From IMG/VR virus record IMGVR_UViG_3300042691_008354, positions 1-36,551 of that record: a stretch of DNA of 36,551 bases; one strand, 5' to 3'. Below the pieces are notes generated by a model, which worked only from the letters and a program-made list of their open reading frames with translations, had not been told where the DNA came from and did not search any database. This DNA is from a virus. Position numbers and translations under genes: made by a program. Below are positions 1 to 10,520 of this stretch, piece after piece; position 1 is the stretch's first letter; every line of letters begins with the position of its first letter.

Positions 1-1024
1 CTAAATTAGATAAACCTACTAAAGCTGTATTTAAACCAAAAACTCCATTAGCTACATTATAAATTTTACTCATAGCTTCAGAAAGTTCTACTTCAGAAGG
101 TTCTCTACCATTTTGCTCTATAAAATCTTGAATATAATTTTCTCTAGCTTCATTAGCAAAATGCCTAGCTTCTACACCAGATTCATAAAATGTACCAGTA
201 CCTAATCTTCTTACAGCACCTGCTACATCAGCAGTTTCTTTAGCTGTCATTCCTAAAGTTCTAAATGCCTTTGAAGCATCTTCTACTTTAGAACCTGCTT
301 TTAAACCTGTTCTTAAAAATCTAGAAGCCATTCCTGGTATAGCAGAAGAAGCTATACCTAAACTTAAATATTCTGTTAATACTGCTCCTGCAACAAATGA
401 CATACCTGAAAGTACATCATTTGCCCAAAAGTTATGAGTACCCATTTTTTGTAGTATACTATAATCTTCAACTTCTTTTCTTACATAATTAGGTAGAGCT
501 TCATCCATTGCTTCATTAGCTCTATCTAACATTCTTTGAAAGTCATTATCATAGACATTACTAAAACTTCCTGTAGCTGCTCCATAAAGCAATCCAGGAA
601 TCATAGCTAAACCTCCTGCTGTTGCAGTTAAAGTTTTACCTGCAAATTTAAGAGTACCATTAGCCCATTTATCAGACCAACTTTGAGTTTCACCAAATAA
701 ATCATCTACATCAGCATATATAGAAGGAGCAGCTTGAGTTTTTTTAGTAAACTCTTCTAATTTTTCTGCTTGTTCTCCTACTACTCTTTCTTGGGTAAAA
801 GCAGGAGTAGCTGGTTGATAACCTCTTTTATCACCAAAAACATCCTCATATTTTAAGCCAGGATTTTCTAATTCCCACTTTTCTTTTTCTTGTGTAAGTC
901 TAACAGCTTCAGGAATATTAATTCCTGGACTAACTATTTGCTGTATTCTATCTCTTAATTGATTTTGTTTATTTTCTTGGCCAATCCACTCCCACTTTCC
1001 AGTAGCTTCATTATACTTCCACAT
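1..1024 (-). CDS. Cargo/ejection-type virion protein, 5' part only
   Basis: This ORF is open from an ATG at 1024 to the window edge, giving 341 codons with the C-terminus off the window. It begins MWKYNEATGKWEW. A charged, helical N-terminal half is followed by Gly/Ala-rich hydrophobic stretches (for example around 'TATAGGLAMIPGLLYGA' and 'SGMSFVAGAVLTEYLSLGI') that could be membrane-active or amphipathic helices. Such segments are common in phage internal proteins that are injected with DNA. It is the last gene of a run of very large virion genes, which supports a virion-internal role. In crAss-like phages the virion RNA polymerase lies beyond the cargo genes; nothing here shows polymerase motifs, and the rest is not visible. 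The leader has no Shine-Dalgarno site. Confidence 0.75.
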   Translation of the reverse strand, partial: MWKYNEATGKWEWIGQENKQNQLRDRIQQIVSPGINIPEAVRLTQEKEKWELENPGLKYEDVFGDKRGYQPATPAFTQERVVGEQAEKLEEFTKKTQAAPSIYADVDDLFGETQSWSDKWANGTLKFAGKTLTATAGGLAMIPGLLYGAATGSFSNVYDNDFQRMLDRANEAMDEALPNYVRKEVEDYSILQKMGTHNFWANDVLSGMSFVAGAVLTEYLSLGIASSAIPGMASRFLRTGLKAGSKVEDASKAFRTLGMTAKETADVAGAVRRLGTGTFYESGVEARHFANEARENYIQDFIEQNGREPSEVELSEAMSKIYNVANGVFGLNTALVGLSNL

Positions 1025-1059: not shown

Positions 1060-1415
1060 TTAATAATTAAATTCTATATGATAATGTGGTGCACCACTAT
1101 CAATTGAATGATATAAAACAGAAGCACCGTATTTACTTTTCCATGCTTTACCTTCTGGTGTTAATAACCAATTCCAAAATTGTAAACCTGCTTCATCATC
1201 TCTAATATCTACAGCTTTACCTTTTACATGAGGAGGATTTTGAGGTTTTTTAGAACTACCTTTTTTATATAGATTTTCTTGTTGTTCAGAAGTTCTAATA
1301 GCATCTGTTACAGTTATTCCAAAAGGAATACTATTTACAGGGGTAAGAAGATAAGAAGTTATATTTTCTTTAACTCCTTCTTTAAATTTTATCTCCTGTC
1401 CCCCTGTTTGGGCTT
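1060..1415 (-). CDS. M15-type peptidoglycan peptidase domain, reached by -1 frameshift from the 847-aa cargo gene
   Basis: Read in the -1 frame relative to the upstream cargo gene, this stretch encodes 117 residues ending HYHIEFNY and a TAA stop at 1060-1062. It carries the M15 (VanY / L-Ala-D-Glu peptidase) signature: an Arg-containing 'TDAIRTSEQQENLY' segment, then HVKGKAVD (HxxGxAxD, tail residues 62-69), then HYH (110-112). His62, Asp69 and one of the last two His are the expected zinc ligands. The frame is open back to a stop at 1504-1506 but has no ATG, GTG, TTG or CTG, so independent initiation is unlikely. A slip at G GGA AAG (1413-1419) would join residue 840 of the cargo protein to this tail, giving 957 aa. 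The likely role is local peptidoglycan cleavage during DNA entry, as with other virion-associated muralytic domains. The domain call is strong; the expression mechanism is inferred, and a one-base sequencing error is the main alternative. Confidence 0.8.
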
Positions 1416-3932
1416 TCCCATAGAAGTACCTCCAGGACTTTGAGTAGAAAAAGGATTTGTAGATAAGTACGCACCAATGTAAGTCATAACTTCTCCGTAA
1501 GATTTAACATTAGAAGGGTTAATAGACTGACCATTACTTAATGGTAGTTGATCAAGACCTCTATAACTACCATCAGGTTTTACTAAAGATATAGAAGTTA
1601 CTCCTGTTGTTGGAGAAGTTCTTAAAGCATACACATTTCCTTCTTTATCTTTAAATTCAACAGGATTTACAGGTCTAGAATTTCCTTGAAAATATAAAGA
1701 AGGTATAGATAACATATTTCTACTAAAGTTTTCTGTAGCTAACCAAGAATATCCTACTTGATTTACAGCAGGATCATCTGAACTTAACATATCAGAAATT
1801 AAGTTTATTTTATCTTTAGAATCAGCTTCACTTAAATCTATTTCTAAACCAGAATATGAATTTGGTTTTATAGCACCATCAGTACCTTTATTAGCTACTC
1901 TAATAAGCATTGTAGGACTTCCTAAATTATTTACATCAAAAAACACTCCTGTAACTTTGTACCCAGCAGAAGCATCAAATTCTGACTCTTTAAAAGGATT
2001 ATCAGCACTAGATAAAATATCTGCTAAATTAGTATTATTTAAATAACTCTTACCACCTATTCCTCTAGAAGCAGCAGTTTTTTGAGCCATATTTGCTATT
2101 GCTGGAGAGTTACTTACAACAAGGTCTTCATATCTTTTTTGTATGCTGTACATAGCTCCTTTTTCTTTTTCATTTTCAGGATCAGCAGCATATACTGTCA
2201 TTCTATTTTGAGCATATTTTTGATTAAAAGTTTCTCTAATAATAGATGTGTGCTCTCTAATTTTGTTAAATTCTGTATTAATTTTAGGATCTTTAGCAGT
2301 GGGGTTGTATTTTTCTATTCCAAATCTTTTTTCTGGAAAATTTTCTACTGGAGTTATTATTTTTAAATCATATAATTTTTTTAAACCAAAATTTGAATTT
2401 ATTTCATCTATAGTATAACTAGTAGAATATCTACTTTTTTCTGGAAAATATTGTTCTACATAAGACATTAATACTAAAGAATTTTGTATTTCTTCTTCAG
2501 GTACTTTAAGCTGTTCTGCTGAAGAACTTACAGCTTCATTATAAATTATTTCTGTGTTTTCTTTTACTTCTTCAGCTTCTCTTAATTGATTTACACTACT
2601 TACAAATTGAGTAAAAGCATTATATTCATCTTCATTCTGAGTAGCAGAAGGAGAAAGGTCTAAAAGTCCTGCATAAACTTTATCTCTAATATCAGTAATT
2701 TGTTCAGGAGTAAAAATTGAATTTAATACAGGGTTTTGTTCATTTAATCCTTGAGAACCTTGGCTAGTAAGTAAATCAAATAATGAAGAATTACTTTGGA
2801 GCAATGCAAGGATCTGAGGTTTATTTTGTAAAGGAATATTTGCTCTTTCTAAAGCTTTTCTAGCAATTTTATCAAACTCAGCATCAAACTTAACAAGTTG
2901 TTCTTTTAAAAGAGGAGAAGAAGTTCTTACAAGACCTAAAAAGTTTTCAGTAGTTCTTTCTTCAGCTTTTGTTATATTTTCAGTTATTTGTGTTGTAGTT
3001 TGAGCAAGAATATCAAAAGGATTTATAACAGCTCCTTCTTCTACAACTGAAATATTTGACCTAACACCTGAAGGACTATATCCTGAATTATTATCTGAAG
3101 TCTTAGGTGATATTGGAGTACTAACATCAGCCTCTGTAATATTATAAAACCTTTTACTAGCTAATTGTTCTACATATCTTTCTAAATCTTCTTGAGTATT
3201 AATTCCTAAATATTCTTTTATGTATGATGCTTGAGCATGAGTATCTTCTAAAAGAACTCTAGCATATTTTTTAATAGCTTCTTGTATATATTTTGCTGAA
3301 GTATTTAAATCAGTTACTTTTCCTTTTTTAACCATTACTATACCACCTGAAGGGTCTACTCTAAATTCTGCATCTTCTTCTTTTGCAGAAGCTGTTAAAA
3401 ATTTTACAAAATTTTCATTTACATAATTTTGAGTATCATTAAAAATAGGAGCTTTAATATCTTCATAATTAATATTTTGCCTCCATTTATATTCTCCTGT
3501 AATAGGGTCAAATTCTTTTAATCCTCTATAATAAGCAGTTTGAGAACCTTCTTTTCCTTCTAATGGTTGAATATTTGTTTTATAAGCAGTAGCATGTCTA
3601 AGTAGTTCTACCATTTCAGGGTCATTTAAATATTCTCTATTTAAATCAGCTAATTGACTAACTACTTGTCCATAATTACTTTTATCTCTTTCTAGTTGAG
3701 CAGCTAACTCTTGAGTTTTTTGAGAAAAATAATCTCTTTTTTTCTGAGCTAAACCTTGTTGTTCATGCCAAGGAGAAGCTTCAACTTTAAAAGTAGCTTT
3801 ATTAGTTAAATCTCTAGCTGCATCTAATCCTGCTTGTTTTTCTTGCAAATTTTTATACATGAAATCCAAAGGCATAGGCACAAACTGTGACTCATAAGGA
3901 GTTTCTATTGGGTTTATAAATCTTACTGCCAT
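1389..3932 (-). CDS. Cargo/ejection virion protein (0-frame product, 847 aa)
   Basis: The protein starts MAVRFINPIETPYESQFVPMPLDFMYKN-, an opening I associate with internal virion (cargo) proteins of crAss-like and related Bacteroidota phages. It is mostly helical and polar. Residues about 30-110 are Lys/Glu/Gln-rich and may form coiled coils, and there is no signal peptide or clear membrane span. It lies 3 nt after the 2194-aa gene and upstream of another cargo-like gene, so it probably belongs to the same injected set. The 0-frame ends MGKPKQGDRR-stop. Just before this end, the heptamer G GGA AAG and an upstream GGAGG suggest that some ribosomes shift to -1 and add an M15 peptidase tail. 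The 0-frame product would then be the major form and the fusion the minor form, or the reverse if the locus contains a base error. Confidence 0.75.
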   Translation of the reverse strand: MAVRFINPIETPYESQFVPMPLDFMYKNLQEKQAGLDAARDLTNKATFKVEASPWHEQQGLAQKKRDYFSQKTQELAAQLERDKSNYGQVVSQLADLNREYLNDPEMVELLRHATAYKTNIQPLEGKEGSQTAYYRGLKEFDPITGEYKWRQNINYEDIKAPIFNDTQNYVNENFVKFLTASAKEEDAEFRVDPSGGIVMVKKGKVTDLNTSAKYIQEAIKKYARVLLEDTHAQASYIKEYLGINTQEDLERYVEQLASKRFYNITEADVSTPISPKTSDNNSGYSPSGVRSNISVVEEGAVINPFDILAQTTTQITENITKAEERTTENFLGLVRTSSPLLKEQLVKFDAEFDKIARKALERANIPLQNKPQILALLQSNSSLFDLLTSQGSQGLNEQNPVLNSIFTPEQITDIRDKVYAGLLDLSPSATQNEDEYNAFTQFVSSVNQLREAEEVKENTEIIYNEAVSSSAEQLKVPEEEIQNSLVLMSYVEQYFPEKSRYSTSYTIDEINSNFGLKKLYDLKIITPVENFPEKRFGIEKYNPTAKDPKINTEFNKIREHTSIIRETFNQKYAQNRMTVYAADPENEKEKGAMYSIQKRYEDLVVSNSPAIANMAQKTAASRGIGGKSYLNNTNLADILSSADNPFKESEFDASAGYKVTGVFFDVNNLGSPTMLIRVANKGTDGAIKPNSYSGLEIDLSEADSKDKINLISDMLSSDDPAVNQVGYSWLATENFSRNMLSIPSLYFQGNSRPVNPVEFKDKEGNVYALRTSPTTGVTSISLVKPDGSYRGLDQLPLSNGQSINPSNVKSYGEVMTYIGAYLSTNPFSTQSPGGTSMGKPKQGDRR
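1413..1419 (-). promoter_or_regulatory. Putative -1 ribosomal frameshift heptamer G GGA AAG
   Basis: The codons ATG GGA AAG of the 847-aa frame contain GGGAAAG in the phase required for tandem -1 slippage (X XXY YYZ). The same heptamer drives the lambda G/GT tail-chaperone frameshift (established knowledge). It sits six codons before the 0-frame stop, inside the only window (1391-1503) where a shift into the M15 frame is possible. I saw no strong downstream stem-loop; lambda G/GT also lacks an obvious one. Confidence 0.65.
1429..1433 (-). promoter_or_regulatory. GGAGG element 9 nt upstream of the slippery heptamer
   Basis: GGAGG on the minus strand lies 9 nt before GGGAAAG. This resembles the Shine-Dalgarno-like stimulator about 10 nt upstream of the E. 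coli dnaX slippery site. It is also 7 nt before the in-frame ATG at 1421, so it could act as an ordinary ribosome binding site there. It may simply encode Gly-Gly. Confidence 0.4.
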
Positions 3933-3935
3933 AAC

Positions 3936-6900
3936 TTATCGTTGTATTTCTGCGTACTGACCACTAGGTAATTTAATATATTTTTTACCATTAACTTCTA
4001 TTTCACCATCATAAAGAGCTGAACCTGATGGAGTAATTCTAGGAACAATTTTACCATTAACTAGATCATAACTTAATGCTCCAAAATCTTTAGTTCTTAA
4101 ATTATTAATCATCATATCTTGACTTTCTCTAGCTCCCATATCTTTTAAGAATGTTTGGAAGTTTTTACCAATACCTTCAGCTCCTTTAAGTCCTAGATTC
4201 CATCTATTAGCTATAGATTGGTCTTTCAATAGATTATTTTGTGCAGCTATATTTGCAGCATTTTGAGCTTCTTGATTAGCTAGAGTTATATTTTGATTAT
4301 CAATACCATATCTAGTTTCAGCTAAAGCACTACCTAAAGCAGTATTTAAAGATGCAGTTCCACTAGCCATATTACTTAAATAAGCAGCTTGTGTAGGTGA
4401 ACCAGTTCTTATAGAATCTTTCATTGTAGCTAATGCTTGATTAGCAGCAGCTCTTCTTAAAGCTACAGGAGTATAATTAAATCTTTGGAACTTAGGTGCA
4501 TAATTATAAGTAGCATCAGGAGAAGCAGCAGCAGCTACCATATTAGCTACAGGGCCTACCATAGAAGCACCTAAACCACCTAAATAATTACCCATAGGAG
4601 AAGAGTAATCTTCTAATTTAAAAGATTGAGAATTAGGATTTTCTGAACTTTTTAAATTAAAATTATCGTTAGTATATAAATTATTAACAGAAGTAAAACC
4701 TGTTGGGTCTGAATTGTATTCTATAGGATTTACAGCTTGTACTCCTAATCTTACAGAAGGTCCTTGTGGTACAGAAGATGAATTAAAAATACTTCTAGAA
4801 AAATCTATAGTTTCTGGAAAAGAAGGATTTACAGCTTTTGTTTCTAATGGATTTTCATAATTAATAGATACTGGATTTACTTTATTATTAGTAGAGTTTA
4901 AACCTCTTATTACATTATTTACTCCACTAAATAAATCATCTGAAGTATTAGGAGTTTTAGAAGGTAAATAACCACTTCTTTGATAATAAAGTTTACCACC
5001 TTTTCTCATTACCATAGGTAAATTAGGAGGAGCAGCTTGCATACCTGACATGTCTTGAGGCATACCTTCAGGCATACCTTGTTGTTGCATAGGCATTTGC
5101 TGTTGTTGTCCACCTAATTGCTGCATTACCATTTCAACAATTTGTACAGCTTGTTGTTCATCTATACCTTGTTGAACTAGACCTTGAATAATTTGCTCAG
5201 GAGGTGTACCATTAGATAAAGCTTGAGCAACCATTTGCATTAGTTGTTCTTGACCTCCACCAGGCATTTGTTGTTGTTGCTGTGGCATCATCATTTCACC
5301 TCCCATTTGATACATATACCCACCATACTCTTTAGCAAAGTTCTTTGCAAAATTAGCTTTTTTTCTCATAGCAGGGCTATAAGTACCTTCTTTAGAATTA
5401 AGTATTTTAGAAGCAGCTTGTTGAACACTTAATCCCATTTTAGATGCTTGTGCTTTAAATGTTCCTTTTTTAGAAGGGTCTATGTGAATACTCCCACCAT
5501 TTTTATACATTTCTACAACATCATTTGTTAAATTAAAATAACCACCATCTTCCCATGTTGCTCTAGCATAAGCTCTAAAATATGGATTTTTAGCTAAATT
5601 CTTTTTATGTTTAGCATAGAAAGCATCTTTACCATATTTAGATTTACTTCTTTCTCCTAACTTAGGGTCTCCAAAATATTTTTTAGTTCCATCAGGCCCT
5701 GTAACTACATGAGTTTTACCTTTTCTATCATTAGACCTTCTAACAGTATAACCACCATTTTTATAATCTACTTCAGGAATTTCATATTCAGCTAAAGGAT
5801 TATATTGTTCAATCATATAACCTCCAAATTCTTTTTTAGGTTTATCATAAGGAAAACTTGGAGAAGTATTACTTTGTTGAATAGCTTGAACTGCATCTGT
5901 TGTTTTACCTAAAACTGGTGTACTAGATAAAGCAATCCCTAGTAACTTTTGGTTTCTACTTAATCTTGAAGAAATATTAGGAGTAGATCTTAATAAGGAT
6001 TTACCTATTTTACCTACTTTACCTAAAATAGGTAAAGCTCCAAAAACTTCTAAACCAGTATCAGCACTAAATAATCCATTGTCTTTAACTGAATTATATA
6101 CATCATCCCAAGAAGTTAATCCTGTAGGATCTGCTATTTCTACAATATTTTCAAAATTAGATTCATCAGAAGGATTAAATAATGATAAAGGATTTTGTCG
6201 TTTATCTAATATTAATCTTCCTTCTTTTCTTTCTTGCTCTTTTAAATAATTTTGTCTTTCAGGATAAGACATTGTTCTAACACTATTAGTATTTAATAAA
6301 TTAGGTCTTGTAAAATTAACAGTATTAGAAAATTGAAAAGAACTATTAGGTGCAGGTAGATAACTACCATTTTGGTAAGATTTTTTAATCTTAGCTTCTT
6401 GCTTTAGCATTTCTTTTGTAGGTTTTTTACCACTACCTCTGTTTGCTCTAATATTATCCCATAGCCCTCTTCTAGAATAAGAACCATCAGCTCTTTTAAT
6501 CATATTACCACCTCCACCTAATTTTTGTTCCATAAAAGGAGCTTGTGTTTCTATAGGTTGATTAGTTAATAGTTGTTGAGAACCATCAGCACCAGTAACC
6601 ATGATAGGTTCATTATTATTAGTAGGAACTACTTGTGTAGGCCCTTGTCCAGGAAAAGTAATACTTTCAGCATCAGGATATAAGTTATATCCCATTTGTT
6701 TTTCTAATTCAGAATTAGCAATAATGTCTTGTTCTTCTTTAGCTTTTTTATCTAATTGGTGAGCTTGAACAAGTTTTTTCATTTTTTGCTCAAATACTTT
6801 TTTAGTTAGAGGATCATTAGGTCTTAGTCCTCCACTTAAAGTAGTTTTAATTAATTTACTAATTTGAGCATAAGTTTTACCAGCATATTTTTCAGGAAGT

Positions 6901-9900
6901 CCTAATGCTTTTAAAGCAGGTTTAGTTGCTTTAATAGTATCAGACATTACATAGTTTTCTGGAGTGTATATAGTTTCATTTCCTTCTACTTCTACAGCAG
7001 GTGCATTAGAATTATTAGGTAGTGTTACACCACCTTGTTCATGTGTAGGCCCTTTAATTTCTGTAAGACCTAAGTTATTATTCATCATACCTCCTTGCTG
7101 AAAATAGAATTTACCTCCATTTCTAGCTAATTTAGCTCCACCAAGTAATCCAGTTAAATTGTTTATTCCTTTTTTAGAATTACCTGTCATTGTACCTGTT
7201 AATGAACCCAAAGCATTAATAGATTCTCCAGCTATTTGTGCAGCTTCACTATCAGGATTTATACCTTTTACACCTGCACCAATACCTTCTAAACCTTCTT
7301 CAAAAGCTGAAGTCATACTAGCAGGATTAATAACAGCTCCACCAGCAGCACCAACTAAATTTCCCCAACCAGCTATTCCTTTTTGTTTAGCTGCTTGTTT
7401 ACCTGTAGTACCAGCAGCACTTTGTAATCCTTTAAAACCTAAGTCTGTAAGTTCATCAGTTAAACCAAAAGTTACAGTATCAAGTAAACCTTCACCTACA
7501 CCATAAAACCCAGCCATAACATCTTCAAATACAGAAGGAGTTTTAGGTCTATTACCCATTCTAACTTTATCTGCATTTAATCCAGAGGTATTTAAGTTAG
7601 TGTTAATAGCACCTCCCATTTGTTTTTTATATTTCATATTTCCTCCGTATTTATAAGTATTGTTATTTTGTTGTGTTGGTTCTATTCTTTTTAAACCTTC
7701 ATATCCTAAATATCCTGTTCCTATGTATGGAAGTAAAGTTCTAAAAATACCAGTTACTTGTCTTGGATCAGAATAAAATCCTACAGCTTTGTCTTTTTTA
7801 ATATTACCTTCCCAAACTTCATAAGAACCTGTTTGTGTTTTTCCTGTTAATGGATTTGTTACTGTTCTTGATTGCCCACTTGCTCCATCACTAATCCTTC
7901 CTAAATCATATTTTTTTAAATACTTATTAAGAGATTCATACAAATGTGTTCCTGGAGTACCTTTAAGCTTAGACATTGTAGGAAAAACACCTCTTGAAGT
8001 ATCAAAAGCTGAAAGACCTGGAATACTGTTTATATAATCATGACTAGCAATATCTTCAATTTCTCCTCTCCAAAAACCTGCTTTTCTAATTGGCATTCTT
8101 GCTACTTGTTCTCCAGCTTCTACTACAGTACCATCAGCTAAAGTTTGTTTAGGAGTATAAATAGTAACAATTCCATTTTCATCTATACCTGTAATTCTAT
8201 ATTCTATACCAGATTTATTTAATCCTTCAGGGCCATTTATAATATTATCATTAAGATCATCTAAATACCTATTAAATTCATCTGCATATTCTTTATTAGA
8301 TGCACTAATTACTCCTTCTGCTTTTTTATTAGGTTGATAAGAAACTACTTCTCCATTAGGTTTAAGAACAGTATTTTCAAATTCAGTTTCTGACATTTTA
8401 GAAACAGCATCTTTATCTTTAGCAGATGCTTTTTGTACTACTTCATCTTTAGTTAATCCTGATTTATTAACAGGTTTTTTTGATTTACTTAAATAACTTC
8501 CTTGTCTATTTTGTGTAAATATTGAAGGTTGAAGTTGTTGAAAGTAATTTACTGTTGGTATATCACCAGAAATAGTTTGTATATCTGATGGGTATCTTAA
8601 TAATTGATCTCTATTAGAATCTCTGATTCTCCACCAATTATTTAATTGATCTTGTGTTAAATTATTTGAAGTTCTGTACTCTGATGCTCTTCCTAAACCA
8701 TTTTTATGTAAAAAAGCTGCTTCATGTGGCTGTAAAAATCTTTCAGAGTTATGAAATACTCTTCTAAGCTCTTCTAAATTTAAAGAAGGTTTTGCAGGTA
8801 CATATTTATTTGACTTTAATGCACCTCTTAAACCTCTTAAAGAGTTTTGTGCAACATAATTTCCTCCTCTTACTACATCATCTACTAAAGACAATGCTCC
8901 TGCTTTATAAGGTAATCCTACAAAACCTAAAGCAGTAAGTCCTACATTACCAACAGCATCATCTATATTTCTTAAAGTAGGATTTTCAATAGCAGTTCTT
9001 ACAGATGTGTTAGTAGCTGATTGTGGGTTTATTATTTGACTTCCAGATGCAGCAGCTCCTACAGCTCCTAAAACATTATTAGCTGTTAGCCAAGGTAAAG
9101 TAGTATTTCCTACAACAGCAGGTAAATTTAAAGTACTTAAAGCACTACTAGCAGCAGCAGGAGCAGCAGCTACTAAACTAGGACCAGCAACTAAGCCAGT
9201 CATTAATCCCATACCTTTAAGCCTATCTTCTTCTTTTTTATCTAAAATTTCTCTACCTTCTCTTTTTGCTTTTTTAAATTCATAGTCTTTTCTTTCTCCA
9301 TAAGACATAGCTCTAGGGCCTGTTTGTTTAATAGGAGAAGCTGCATAATTAGGAACAGCTCCAAATTGAACTACAGGTTTTACAGGAGGTAAGGGAGGTA
9401 AATTCCCACCATTTTCTTTCCAAACTTTATCACCAAAATTTAATCCTCCTAATTCTGTTCCAACAATAAGAGGTACTTTTTTACCTCCAGGGATTTGTAT
9501 AGAATCTTGACCTTGAAAAGAATTAAATTGTTCTCTATTTAATATTTGTCTAGTAGGTTGTAAATTATTATTTCTATACCATATTTCATACTGATTACCT
9601 CCTATAGGATTTATATAAGCAGCATCAGGTTGTAAAGGTTGGTTACTTCTAGGAATAATAGTTGAAGAAGGTGTAGAACTAATTATAGGTTCTTCTTTTT
9701 TAGGAATAGTTATTGTTGTAGGTTTTCTTTGATATTTAATAGGTTGTACTGGTTTTTTGTATTCTCTTGCTTCTTGAGCTATTGTATTTGGTGATATTAA
9801 ATGTCTTTGATATGTTTTATAAGGTTTAGGATAATTTAAGCGTTCTAAAAGTCTTTCTGTTTCCCAAAAAGTAGGTATATATACTTTATTCCATTCTAAG

Positions 9901-10520
9901 CTACTTTTAACTTTTTTTAAACCATCAATCTGTCCTCTAGTTAAATTATGTAAACTTAAACTATCCTGATAAGCTTTTAATCTAGGATCATTAGGGTTAT
10001 CTACATATATAGGTGCTCTACCACCTTTTTGATATAACTGCTTAGTCTTAGGAACATATTGTAATTGGTTTTCTCCAAAATGTCCTTCAGGATTATATGT
10101 AATATTATAGTTATTATAAACTTCAGGGTTTAGTTGATAACCATGTAAAACTTCCTCCCATGCTGAAGGGTGTTGTTTAGATTTTAACCAATTACCATCA
10201 TTACCAACACTAAAACCATGATATAGTCCATCATCTTGTAAAGGAAAATATTCAGTATCTTTTACATGTAAAAAAGATTTAGGAGAACCTACAGTTTCCC
10301 ACATTCCTCTTAAATTATATTCAGGGCCTGTTTGTTTTAAATTATCAGGTAGTGTTTCTACAAAATCATTAAAATTATAATCTTCAACATGTTTTACAAA
10401 ATCTTCAAAACTACCACCTGCTTGCATAACAACAGGGTTAAGACCTAAACCTTTTCTAAAAGACATTTCAGAAGGGTAGTTAGCTCTTTTTTTCTTTTTA
10501 GTATATCTTTTAGCTTTCAT
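3936..10520 (-). CDS. Giant mosaic cargo/structural protein (2194 aa)
   Basis: This is the largest gene in the window. Its ATG shares one base with the stop of the preceding muzzle gene (TAATG), so the two are translationally coupled. The N-terminus is basic (KAKRYTKKKKRANYPSEMS). The protein is a string of dissimilar segments separated by short motifs with GG after a charged or aromatic residue (near residues 166, 370, 957, 967, 1132, 1141, 1336, 1565, 1588, 1658, 1673, 1733, 1740 and 1840). Recognisable pieces are: a hydrophobic Gly/Ala segment near 440-500; a 'GPTHEQGG...EVEGNETIYTPENYV' module near 1160-1200 that I have seen in Bacteroidota phage proteins; a 'GPDGTKKYFGDPKLGER' module near 1600-1625; a Gln/Met-rich part at about 1745-1830; and an Ala-rich helical C-terminal region ending in a small beta segment. 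Position and size match crAss-like cargo protein. No enzymatic motif was identified. Confidence 0.75.
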   Translation of the reverse strand: MKAKRYTKKKKRANYPSEMSFRKGLGLNPVVMQAGGSFEDFVKHVEDYNFNDFVETLPDNLKQTGPEYNLRGMWETVGSPKSFLHVKDTEYFPLQDDGLYHGFSVGNDGNWLKSKQHPSAWEEVLHGYQLNPEVYNNYNITYNPEGHFGENQLQYVPKTKQLYQKGGRAPIYVDNPNDPRLKAYQDSLSLHNLTRGQIDGLKKVKSSLEWNKVYIPTFWETERLLERLNYPKPYKTYQRHLISPNTIAQEAREYKKPVQPIKYQRKPTTITIPKKEEPIISSTPSSTIIPRSNQPLQPDAAYINPIGGNQYEIWYRNNNLQPTRQILNREQFNSFQGQDSIQIPGGKKVPLIVGTELGGLNFGDKVWKENGGNLPPLPPVKPVVQFGAVPNYAASPIKQTGPRAMSYGERKDYEFKKAKREGREILDKKEEDRLKGMGLMTGLVAGPSLVAAAPAAASSALSTLNLPAVVGNTTLPWLTANNVLGAVGAAASGSQIINPQSATNTSVRTAIENPTLRNIDDAVGNVGLTALGFVGLPYKAGALSLVDDVVRGGNYVAQNSLRGLRGALKSNKYVPAKPSLNLEELRRVFHNSERFLQPHEAAFLHKNGLGRASEYRTSNNLTQDQLNNWWRIRDSNRDQLLRYPSDIQTISGDIPTVNYFQQLQPSIFTQNRQGSYLSKSKKPVNKSGLTKDEVVQKASAKDKDAVSKMSETEFENTVLKPNGEVVSYQPNKKAEGVISASNKEYADEFNRYLDDLNDNIINGPEGLNKSGIEYRITGIDENGIVTIYTPKQTLADGTVVEAGEQVARMPIRKAGFWRGEIEDIASHDYINSIPGLSAFDTSRGVFPTMSKLKGTPGTHLYESLNKYLKKYDLGRISDGASGQSRTVTNPLTGKTQTGSYEVWEGNIKKDKAVGFYSDPRQVTGIFRTLLPYIGTGYLGYEGLKRIEPTQQNNNTYKYGGNMKYKKQMGGAINTNLNTSGLNADKVRMGNRPKTPSVFEDVMAGFYGVGEGLLDTVTFGLTDELTDLGFKGLQSAAGTTGKQAAKQKGIAGWGNLVGAAGGAVINPASMTSAFEEGLEGIGAGVKGINPDSEAAQIAGESINALGSLTGTMTGNSKKGINNLTGLLGGAKLARNGGKFYFQQGGMMNNNLGLTEIKGPTHEQGGVTLPNNSNAPAVEVEGNETIYTPENYVMSDTIKATKPALKALGLPEKYAGKTYAQISKLIKTTLSGGLRPNDPLTKKVFEQKMKKLVQAHQLDKKAKEEQDIIANSELEKQMGYNLYPDAESITFPGQGPTQVVPTNNNEPIMVTGADGSQQLLTNQPIETQAPFMEQKLGGGGNMIKRADGSYSRRGLWDNIRANRGSGKKPTKEMLKQEAKIKKSYQNGSYLPAPNSSFQFSNTVNFTRPNLLNTNSVRTMSYPERQNYLKEQERKEGRLILDKRQNPLSLFNPSDESNFENIVEIADPTGLTSWDDVYNSVKDNGLFSADTGLEVFGALPILGKVGKIGKSLLRSTPNISSRLSRNQKLLGIALSSTPVLGKTTDAVQAIQQSNTSPSFPYDKPKKEFGGYMIEQYNPLAEYEIPEVDYKNGGYTVRRSNDRKGKTHVVTGPDGTKKYFGDPKLGERSKSKYGKDAFYAKHKKNLAKNPYFRAYARATWEDGGYFNLTNDVVEMYKNGGSIHIDPSKKGTFKAQASKMGLSVQQAASKILNSKEGTYSPAMRKKANFAKNFAKEYGGYMYQMGGEMMMPQQQQQMPGGGQEQLMQMVAQALSNGTPPEQIIQGLVQQGIDEQQAVQIVEMVMQQLGGQQQQMPMQQQGMPEGMPQDMSGMQAAPPNLPMVMRKGGKLYYQRSGYLPSKTPNTSDDLFSGVNNVIRGLNSTNNKVNPVSINYENPLETKAVNPSFPETIDFSRSIFNSSSVPQGPSVRLGVQAVNPIEYNSDPTGFTSVNNLYTNDNFNLKSSENPNSQSFKLEDYSSPMGNYLGGLGASMVGPVANMVAAAASPDATYNYAPKFQRFNYTPVALRRAAANQALATMKDSIRTGSPTQAAYLSNMASGTASLNTALGSALAETRYGIDNQNITLANQEAQNAANIAAQNNLLKDQSIANRWNLGLKGAEGIGKNFQTFLKDMGARESQDMMINNLRTKDFGALSYDLVNGKIVPRITPSGSALYDGEIEVNGKKYIKLPSGQYAEIQR

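Follow-up and report, generated by a model that had tools for sequence, protein, structure and literature searches.

In the virus analysed here, the 3′ end of the gene for an 847-residue protein very probably carries a conserved programmed −1 ribosomal frameshift site, a reading drawn from sequence comparison across ten lineages of crAss-like phages. We consider it likely, with slightly less assurance, that the shifted product is a fusion of this protein to a cell-wall hydrolase. With appreciably more reserve, we favour a role for that fusion in phage entry.

The junction and its neighbourhood

The window, by which we mean the whole 36.5 kb virus record, holds the Crassvirales gene set of crassvirus portal, terminase, capsid and cargo protein 1 (CARG1). 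Its terminase, portal and major capsid match crAss-like profiles in profile searches, and the named relatives of the portal are crAss-like phages, at 25–29% identity. The features around the junction are as follows.

3936..10520, minus strand: preceding gene, 2194 aa, with a crassvirus cargo protein 1 (CARG1) domain (Pfam PF25725, 1.2e-10)
1389..3932, minus strand: 847 aa product of the zero frame, in the position of crAss001 cargo protein 2 (gp46)
1413..1419, minus strand: slippery heptamer G GGA AAG, phased so as to allow a −1 slip, with the zero-frame stop eight codons on
1060..1413, minus strand: −1-frame extension with an M15-like peptidase domain, 117 codons plus the stop at 1060-1062, predicted to need the slip
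2..1024, minus strand: gene that follows, for a gp47-like RNA-polymerase-associated protein of 341 aa, truncated at the window end (phrog_32390)

The order of CARG1-domain protein, 847-residue protein and gp47-like gene is that of crAss001. Within the product of the preceding gene (3936-10520, minus strand) a block of about 50 residues (residues ~1662-1719) matches genes of gut crAss-like phages that are distant in other respects, at 51–63% identity.

The heptamer is read in the zero frame as ATG GGA AAG, the slippery G being the last base of the ATG codon (atG GGA AAG). The −1 frame is open from 1503 to the stop at 1060-1062, overlaps the 847-residue frame by 115 nt and contains no ATG, GTG or TTG anywhere in this open stretch. 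A −1 slip predicts a passage from TSMGK to AQTGGQEIK, within the predicted junction peptide TSMGKAQTGGQEIK, and a fusion of 957 residues to which the downstream part contributes 117. A preliminary description had set out this arrangement. When the open reading frames and the heptamer were re-derived from the sequence its coordinates, phase and junction proved to be right, a slip at 1413-1419 gave the same 957-residue product, and the −1 frame was again found to be open from 1503 to 1060 with none of the three start codons.

Conservation of the predicted shift site

Relatives of the junction were located through the gp47-like neighbour gene together with the conserved N-terminus of the upstream protein. 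Ten lineages were obtained: the window, L015, L024, L028, L031-L033, L034, L035, L036, L037 and L046, where L031-L033 are three separate contigs from different metagenomes that are counted once as a single lineage. Searches with single proteins (the upstream protein, the M15 part and the L015 homologue) gave no match among viral contigs or named phages, and no relatives of the junction were found in the bacterial genome contigs searched. The closest relatives by terminase, L002-L009 (~82%), are fragments with no match to the upstream protein.

In all ten lineages the −1 frame opens within the 3′ end of the upstream gene and the shift is always −1. The overlaps are short (13–38 codons) and each contains an in-phase heptamer, 8–18 codons ahead of the zero-frame stop, which is GGGAAAG in nine lineages and GGGAAAA in the other (L015). 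One of the ten, L046, was retrieved only after the heptamer rule had been fixed in writing, and it conforms. The upstream proteins of the nine loci compared are 23–79% identical, mostly below 40%, so the shift site has been kept across deep divergence. Away from the junctions, just two in-phase copies of GGGAAAA or GGGAAAG were counted among about 21 800 codons of the window, L015, L024 and L028. The product of chances is about 4e-23 (using a rate of three per 21 825 and treating nine lineages as independent), a figure to be taken as a measure of conservation and not as a true p-value since shared ancestry is ignored. No extension was found after the equivalent gene in the outgroups L026, L029, crAss001, phi14:2, phi4:1, csAssE-Sib, L022 and L023.

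The −1 part shows the marks of a coding sequence. Between the window and L031 the extension is 62% identical while the upstream protein is 33% identical, and the extension has dN 0.32 and dS 0.86, giving dN/dS of about 0.37, a rough value because dS is high. Judged from these substitution patterns, the −1 part is under selection at the protein level. In five lineages the extension runs to 585–713 codons and is therefore not a chance open frame.

These comparisons bear on three other ways of accounting for the split frames. The window sequence is known from an assembled contig alone, and a single in-frame fusion gene might have been divided by an error of one base in sequencing or assembly, or by a mutation that arose recently; the preliminary description had named a one-base deletion as its main alternative and had asked for homologous loci to be aligned. 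The heptamer and the −1 layout turn out to be conserved in nine further lineages, one of them represented by three contigs from different metagenomes. This excludes sequencing error, and we regard the error or recent-mutation account as having a negligible chance of being correct. The contrary case, a relative with the hydrolase in frame, was sought and found in none. A second account holds that the −1 frame is translated separately, by termination and re-initiation or from a non-canonical start, to give a small hydrolase, with the heptamer being incidental. The close overlap of the zero-frame stop and the −1 frame fits this account, as do the GTG or TTG codons that lie near the zero-frame stop, up to about 40 nt past the heptamer, in L028, L035, L036 and L046. 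The extensions of the window, L031 and L034, however, have no ATG, GTG or TTG, and in L015, L024 and L037 such codons occur only inside or well beyond the junction, the first in the extension being some 200–460 nt beyond the heptamer. Re-initiation also leaves unexplained the presence in every overlap of an in-phase heptamer that is otherwise rare, and we think it improbable. Slippage by RNA polymerase rather than the ribosome would yield frame-shifted mRNAs and the same product, and runs of G and A are present. Polymerase slippage usually requires a long homopolymer, however, which GGGAAAG does not offer; the run of five G that follows the site in the window is not common to all relatives, and what is conserved is a correctly phased heptamer of the tandem-slip type X XXY YYZ. 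This makes the transcriptional account very improbable, and ribosomal frameshifting is the reading that we retain.

Candidate stimulators of the proposed ribosomal slip were sought on both sides of the heptamer. Two are present in the window.

1337..1407, minus strand: predicted RNA stem-loop of ~70 nt starting 5 nt after the heptamer, candidate stimulator (80 nt fold, −25.8 kcal/mol)
1428..1433, minus strand: GGAGGT, resembling a Shine-Dalgarno sequence and placed 8 nt before the heptamer; a possible but doubtful stimulator as in dnaX

Of 370 background windows taken from the record, not one folds as stably as the stem-loop, and four have z <= −4. Stems that start 4–6 nt past the heptamer are also predicted in L015, where the stem is strong, and in L035, L036 and L046; RNA folding gave no clear stem downstream of the heptamer in L028. 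An upstream GGAGG is also present in L015, L024, L028, L031 and L034 and is absent from the 45 nt upstream in L035, L036 and L037. Bacteroidota seem to make little use of Shine-Dalgarno pairing, hence the doubt over GGAGGT as a stimulator. Since no element is shared by all ten lineages, downstream or upstream, the evidence for stimulators is suggestive; to our knowledge neither a downstream structure nor a Shine-Dalgarno-like element is obligatory for −1 frameshifting in bacteria. The GGAGG stretch is accompanied by a hairpin just upstream of the heptamer in L024, L028, L031 and L034. In L031 (6543-6573), L024 and L028 the GGAGG is complementary to a CCTCC that follows it; the hairpin that the two can form lies just before the slip site and could regulate or stimulate the shift.

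Enzyme types behind the shift site

The extension resembles a peptidoglycan hydrolase in nine of the ten lineages, and the enzyme type varies. The M15-like parts are those of the window, L031, L034 and L028, in which two motifs align.

1207..1230, minus strand: HVKGKAVD (residues 62-69 of the −1 part), a putative zinc-binding motif within the M15-like domain; H62, G65, A67 and D69 are invariant
1078..1086, minus strand: HYH (residues 110-112 of the −1 part), a second motif with a putative zinc-binding or catalytic function, invariant in the alignment

The motifs of the M15 domain named in the preliminary description are invariant and the window domain matches the endolysin family phrog_465 among the PHROG profiles (3.1e-7), but the profiles of the M15 family (LAS metallopeptidases) stay below their curated cut-offs, the best values being 20.0 bits against 25 for VanY (L031) and 14.0 against 23.2 for M15_3 (L028). 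An AlphaFold model of the window domain is poor (confidence 61.6) with no meaningful fold match. We treat the M15 assignment as putative, drawn from the HxxGxAxDxR...HYH motif, matches to phage endolysins and L-Ala-D-Glu peptidases, and weak profile matches.

The L046 extension contains a clear M23 peptidase (6.3e-29). Those of L015, L024, L035 and L036 align with one another and are tentatively called lysozyme-like or transglycosylase-like from a match to a phage gene that itself bears a weak transglycosylase match and from a weak structural match; the model is fair (80.7), and the label is a weak one because the best structural match is the phi6 lysin at E 0.96. None of the profile libraries searched assigned a domain to the L037 extension, which, like the second domain of L046, may resemble the P5-type phage lysozymes. 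A C-terminal module of about 245 residues (IAYHDLGSFSAKP...YTGGALAxPSN) closes the extensions of L046 (6225-6965), L035 (6030-6779) and L028 (5670-6425). It is 53–79% identical among the three, that is across clades, and had no match in named phages.

In a phylogeny of the gp47-like neighbour, L024 groups with L028 as its sister (support 100/99), yet the two carry different enzymes, and L037 falls close to L015 and L036 with an extension different from theirs. Sisters with different enzymes mean that the enzyme has been exchanged behind a fixed shift site. On the domain assignments given above, the site is fixed and the enzyme exchangeable among putative M15, M23 and lysozyme-like types.

Lambda G/GT uses the same GGGAAAG heptamer as the window. 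It is established that programmed −1 shifts can lengthen virion proteins, as in T3, T7 and A2, or yield tail chaperones, as in lambda (PMC5009743). In lambda the ribosome slips by −1 shortly before the first gene ends, which gives a minor form with a C-terminal extension, at a G to GT ratio of 30:1 (PMC5009743). The lambda products are chaperones that are absent from the virion and are encoded beside the tape measure gene, whereas the first product in the window, which comes from a short-tailed crAss-like phage, is a member of a virion-protein family and has a predicted enzyme as its extension. The tape-measure neighbour expected for a lambda-type chaperone of a long-tailed phage is not found; in the window the neighbours are the CARG1-domain and gp47-like genes. 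A further parallel is offered by gene 10 of T7 and T3 (10A/10B) and the capsid of phage A2, in which a −1 shift places a C-terminal domain on a share of the copies of a virion protein (PMC5009743). What is added there is an Ig-like or otherwise non-enzymatic domain on the outer coat protein, whereas here various peptidoglycan hydrolase-like domains would follow a presumed internal protein at a conserved site. In the case of the Ig-like domains of phages, shifts are believed to arise when a domain moves by chance (PMC5009743); here, in contrast, the shift site is conserved while the domain is exchanged. The users of programmed frameshifting would gain a new class of gene, one in which the shift site stays and the domain behind it is exchanged. 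The preliminary description knew of no account of this in crAss-like phages, and in the open-access papers searched we likewise found no description of crAss-like frameshifting or of a frameshift-made virion hydrolase. Ordinary gene callers will miss or split such fusions, so enzymes of this kind have probably been overlooked in many environmental phages.

The upstream protein and a possible role in entry

The 847-residue protein alone has no PHROG match. Its N-terminus aligns with the phi4:1/csAssE-Sib family over 235 N-terminal columns (hhalign probability 91.7, E 7.9e-7), and this family (phi4:1 gp039, phrog_32131) is one of virion structural proteins, phi4:1 gp039 being annotated as found in the virion by MS/MS. 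Homology to the crAss001 gp46 profile was not detected (hhalign probability 0.9, E 0.06), and for this reason we call the protein a positional equivalent only. Both loci have a CARG1-domain protein, a gene in the gp46 position and then gp47; crAss001 differs in lacking an extension, with gp47 beginning 7 nt after the gp46 stop. The preliminary description had spoken of an injected cargo protein bearing the hydrolase on a minority of copies at a set ratio; we keep ejection of the 847-residue protein and a set, minor proportion of fused copies as working assumptions.

In the mechanism that we propose, most ribosomes would complete the 847-residue protein and some would slip back one base on G GGA AAG into the −1 frame, giving the 957-residue protein with a C-terminal M15-type peptidoglycan peptidase. 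Both forms would join the virion through their common N-terminal part. The few hydrolase-bearing copies would then exit among the ejected proteins and breach the cell wall so that the DNA can enter. Slippage in vivo, a particular slip rate, packaging in the virion and wall cleavage during infection are what this scheme would predict. An internal virion protein with a wall-cutting domain that leaves with or before the DNA is known in T7 gp16. The proposed fusion is like T7 gp16 and the P22-type ejection proteins in that an internal virion protein bears such a domain. Every copy of the T7 protein carries it in frame, whereas here it would be present on a fraction set by the frameshift. The sequence G_GGA_AAG is highly shift-prone in E. 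coli (PMC5009743). How often ribosomes shift on it depends on the tRNAs of the host.

The cargo proteins of crAss001 have been proposed to exit before the DNA and to form a channel; the paper on the crAss001 structure describes these proteins with no mention of peptidoglycan, lysozyme or endopeptidase (PMC10172136). An in-frame Phage_lysozyme2 domain adjoins CARG1 in cargo protein 1 of cr85_1 (L040, 1242-4013) and bajarodcaudo virus 1 (L038, 1011-3974). Profile searches found no Phage_lysozyme2 domain in crAss001 gp45 and no lysozyme domain in cargo protein 1 of the window. The exit proposal for crAss001 and the in-frame lysozyme in cargo protein 1 of the gut relatives make a wall enzyme among the ejected proteins generally plausible, and the crAss-like group formed by these ten lineages would supply its enzyme by frameshift.

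Entry is the use that we judge probable. The hydrolase domains resemble phage endolysins, and a real frameshift might instead serve another step, such as late lysis or capsid maturation, with the fusion not being ejected. The fusion partner, however, has a relative found in the virion and sits in the cargo-gene cluster, and a lysozyme domain occurs in the neighbouring cargo protein 1 of other crAss-like phages, which together make another step unlikely, though far less so than the accounts that dispense with ribosomal frameshifting. For the passage of crAss-like phages across the cell wall, the frameshift-made fusion is a specific candidate with a possible dose control. We would give an even chance to the further idea that, in an ejected virion protein, the shift site provides a fixed docking point, limits the number of hydrolase copies in each particle and allows the hydrolase (M15, M23 or lysozyme-like) to be exchanged to suit the wall of the host. 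If this is true, the wall would be opened locally without destroying the cell, and the structural protein and the dose control would stay the same while hydrolases are swapped.

A cyanobacterial phage, Leptolyngbya phage Lbo-JY46 (L019, PP438436), has gp47-like and phrog_32131-like virion genes in a crAss-like order, together with a transglycosylase-like gene.
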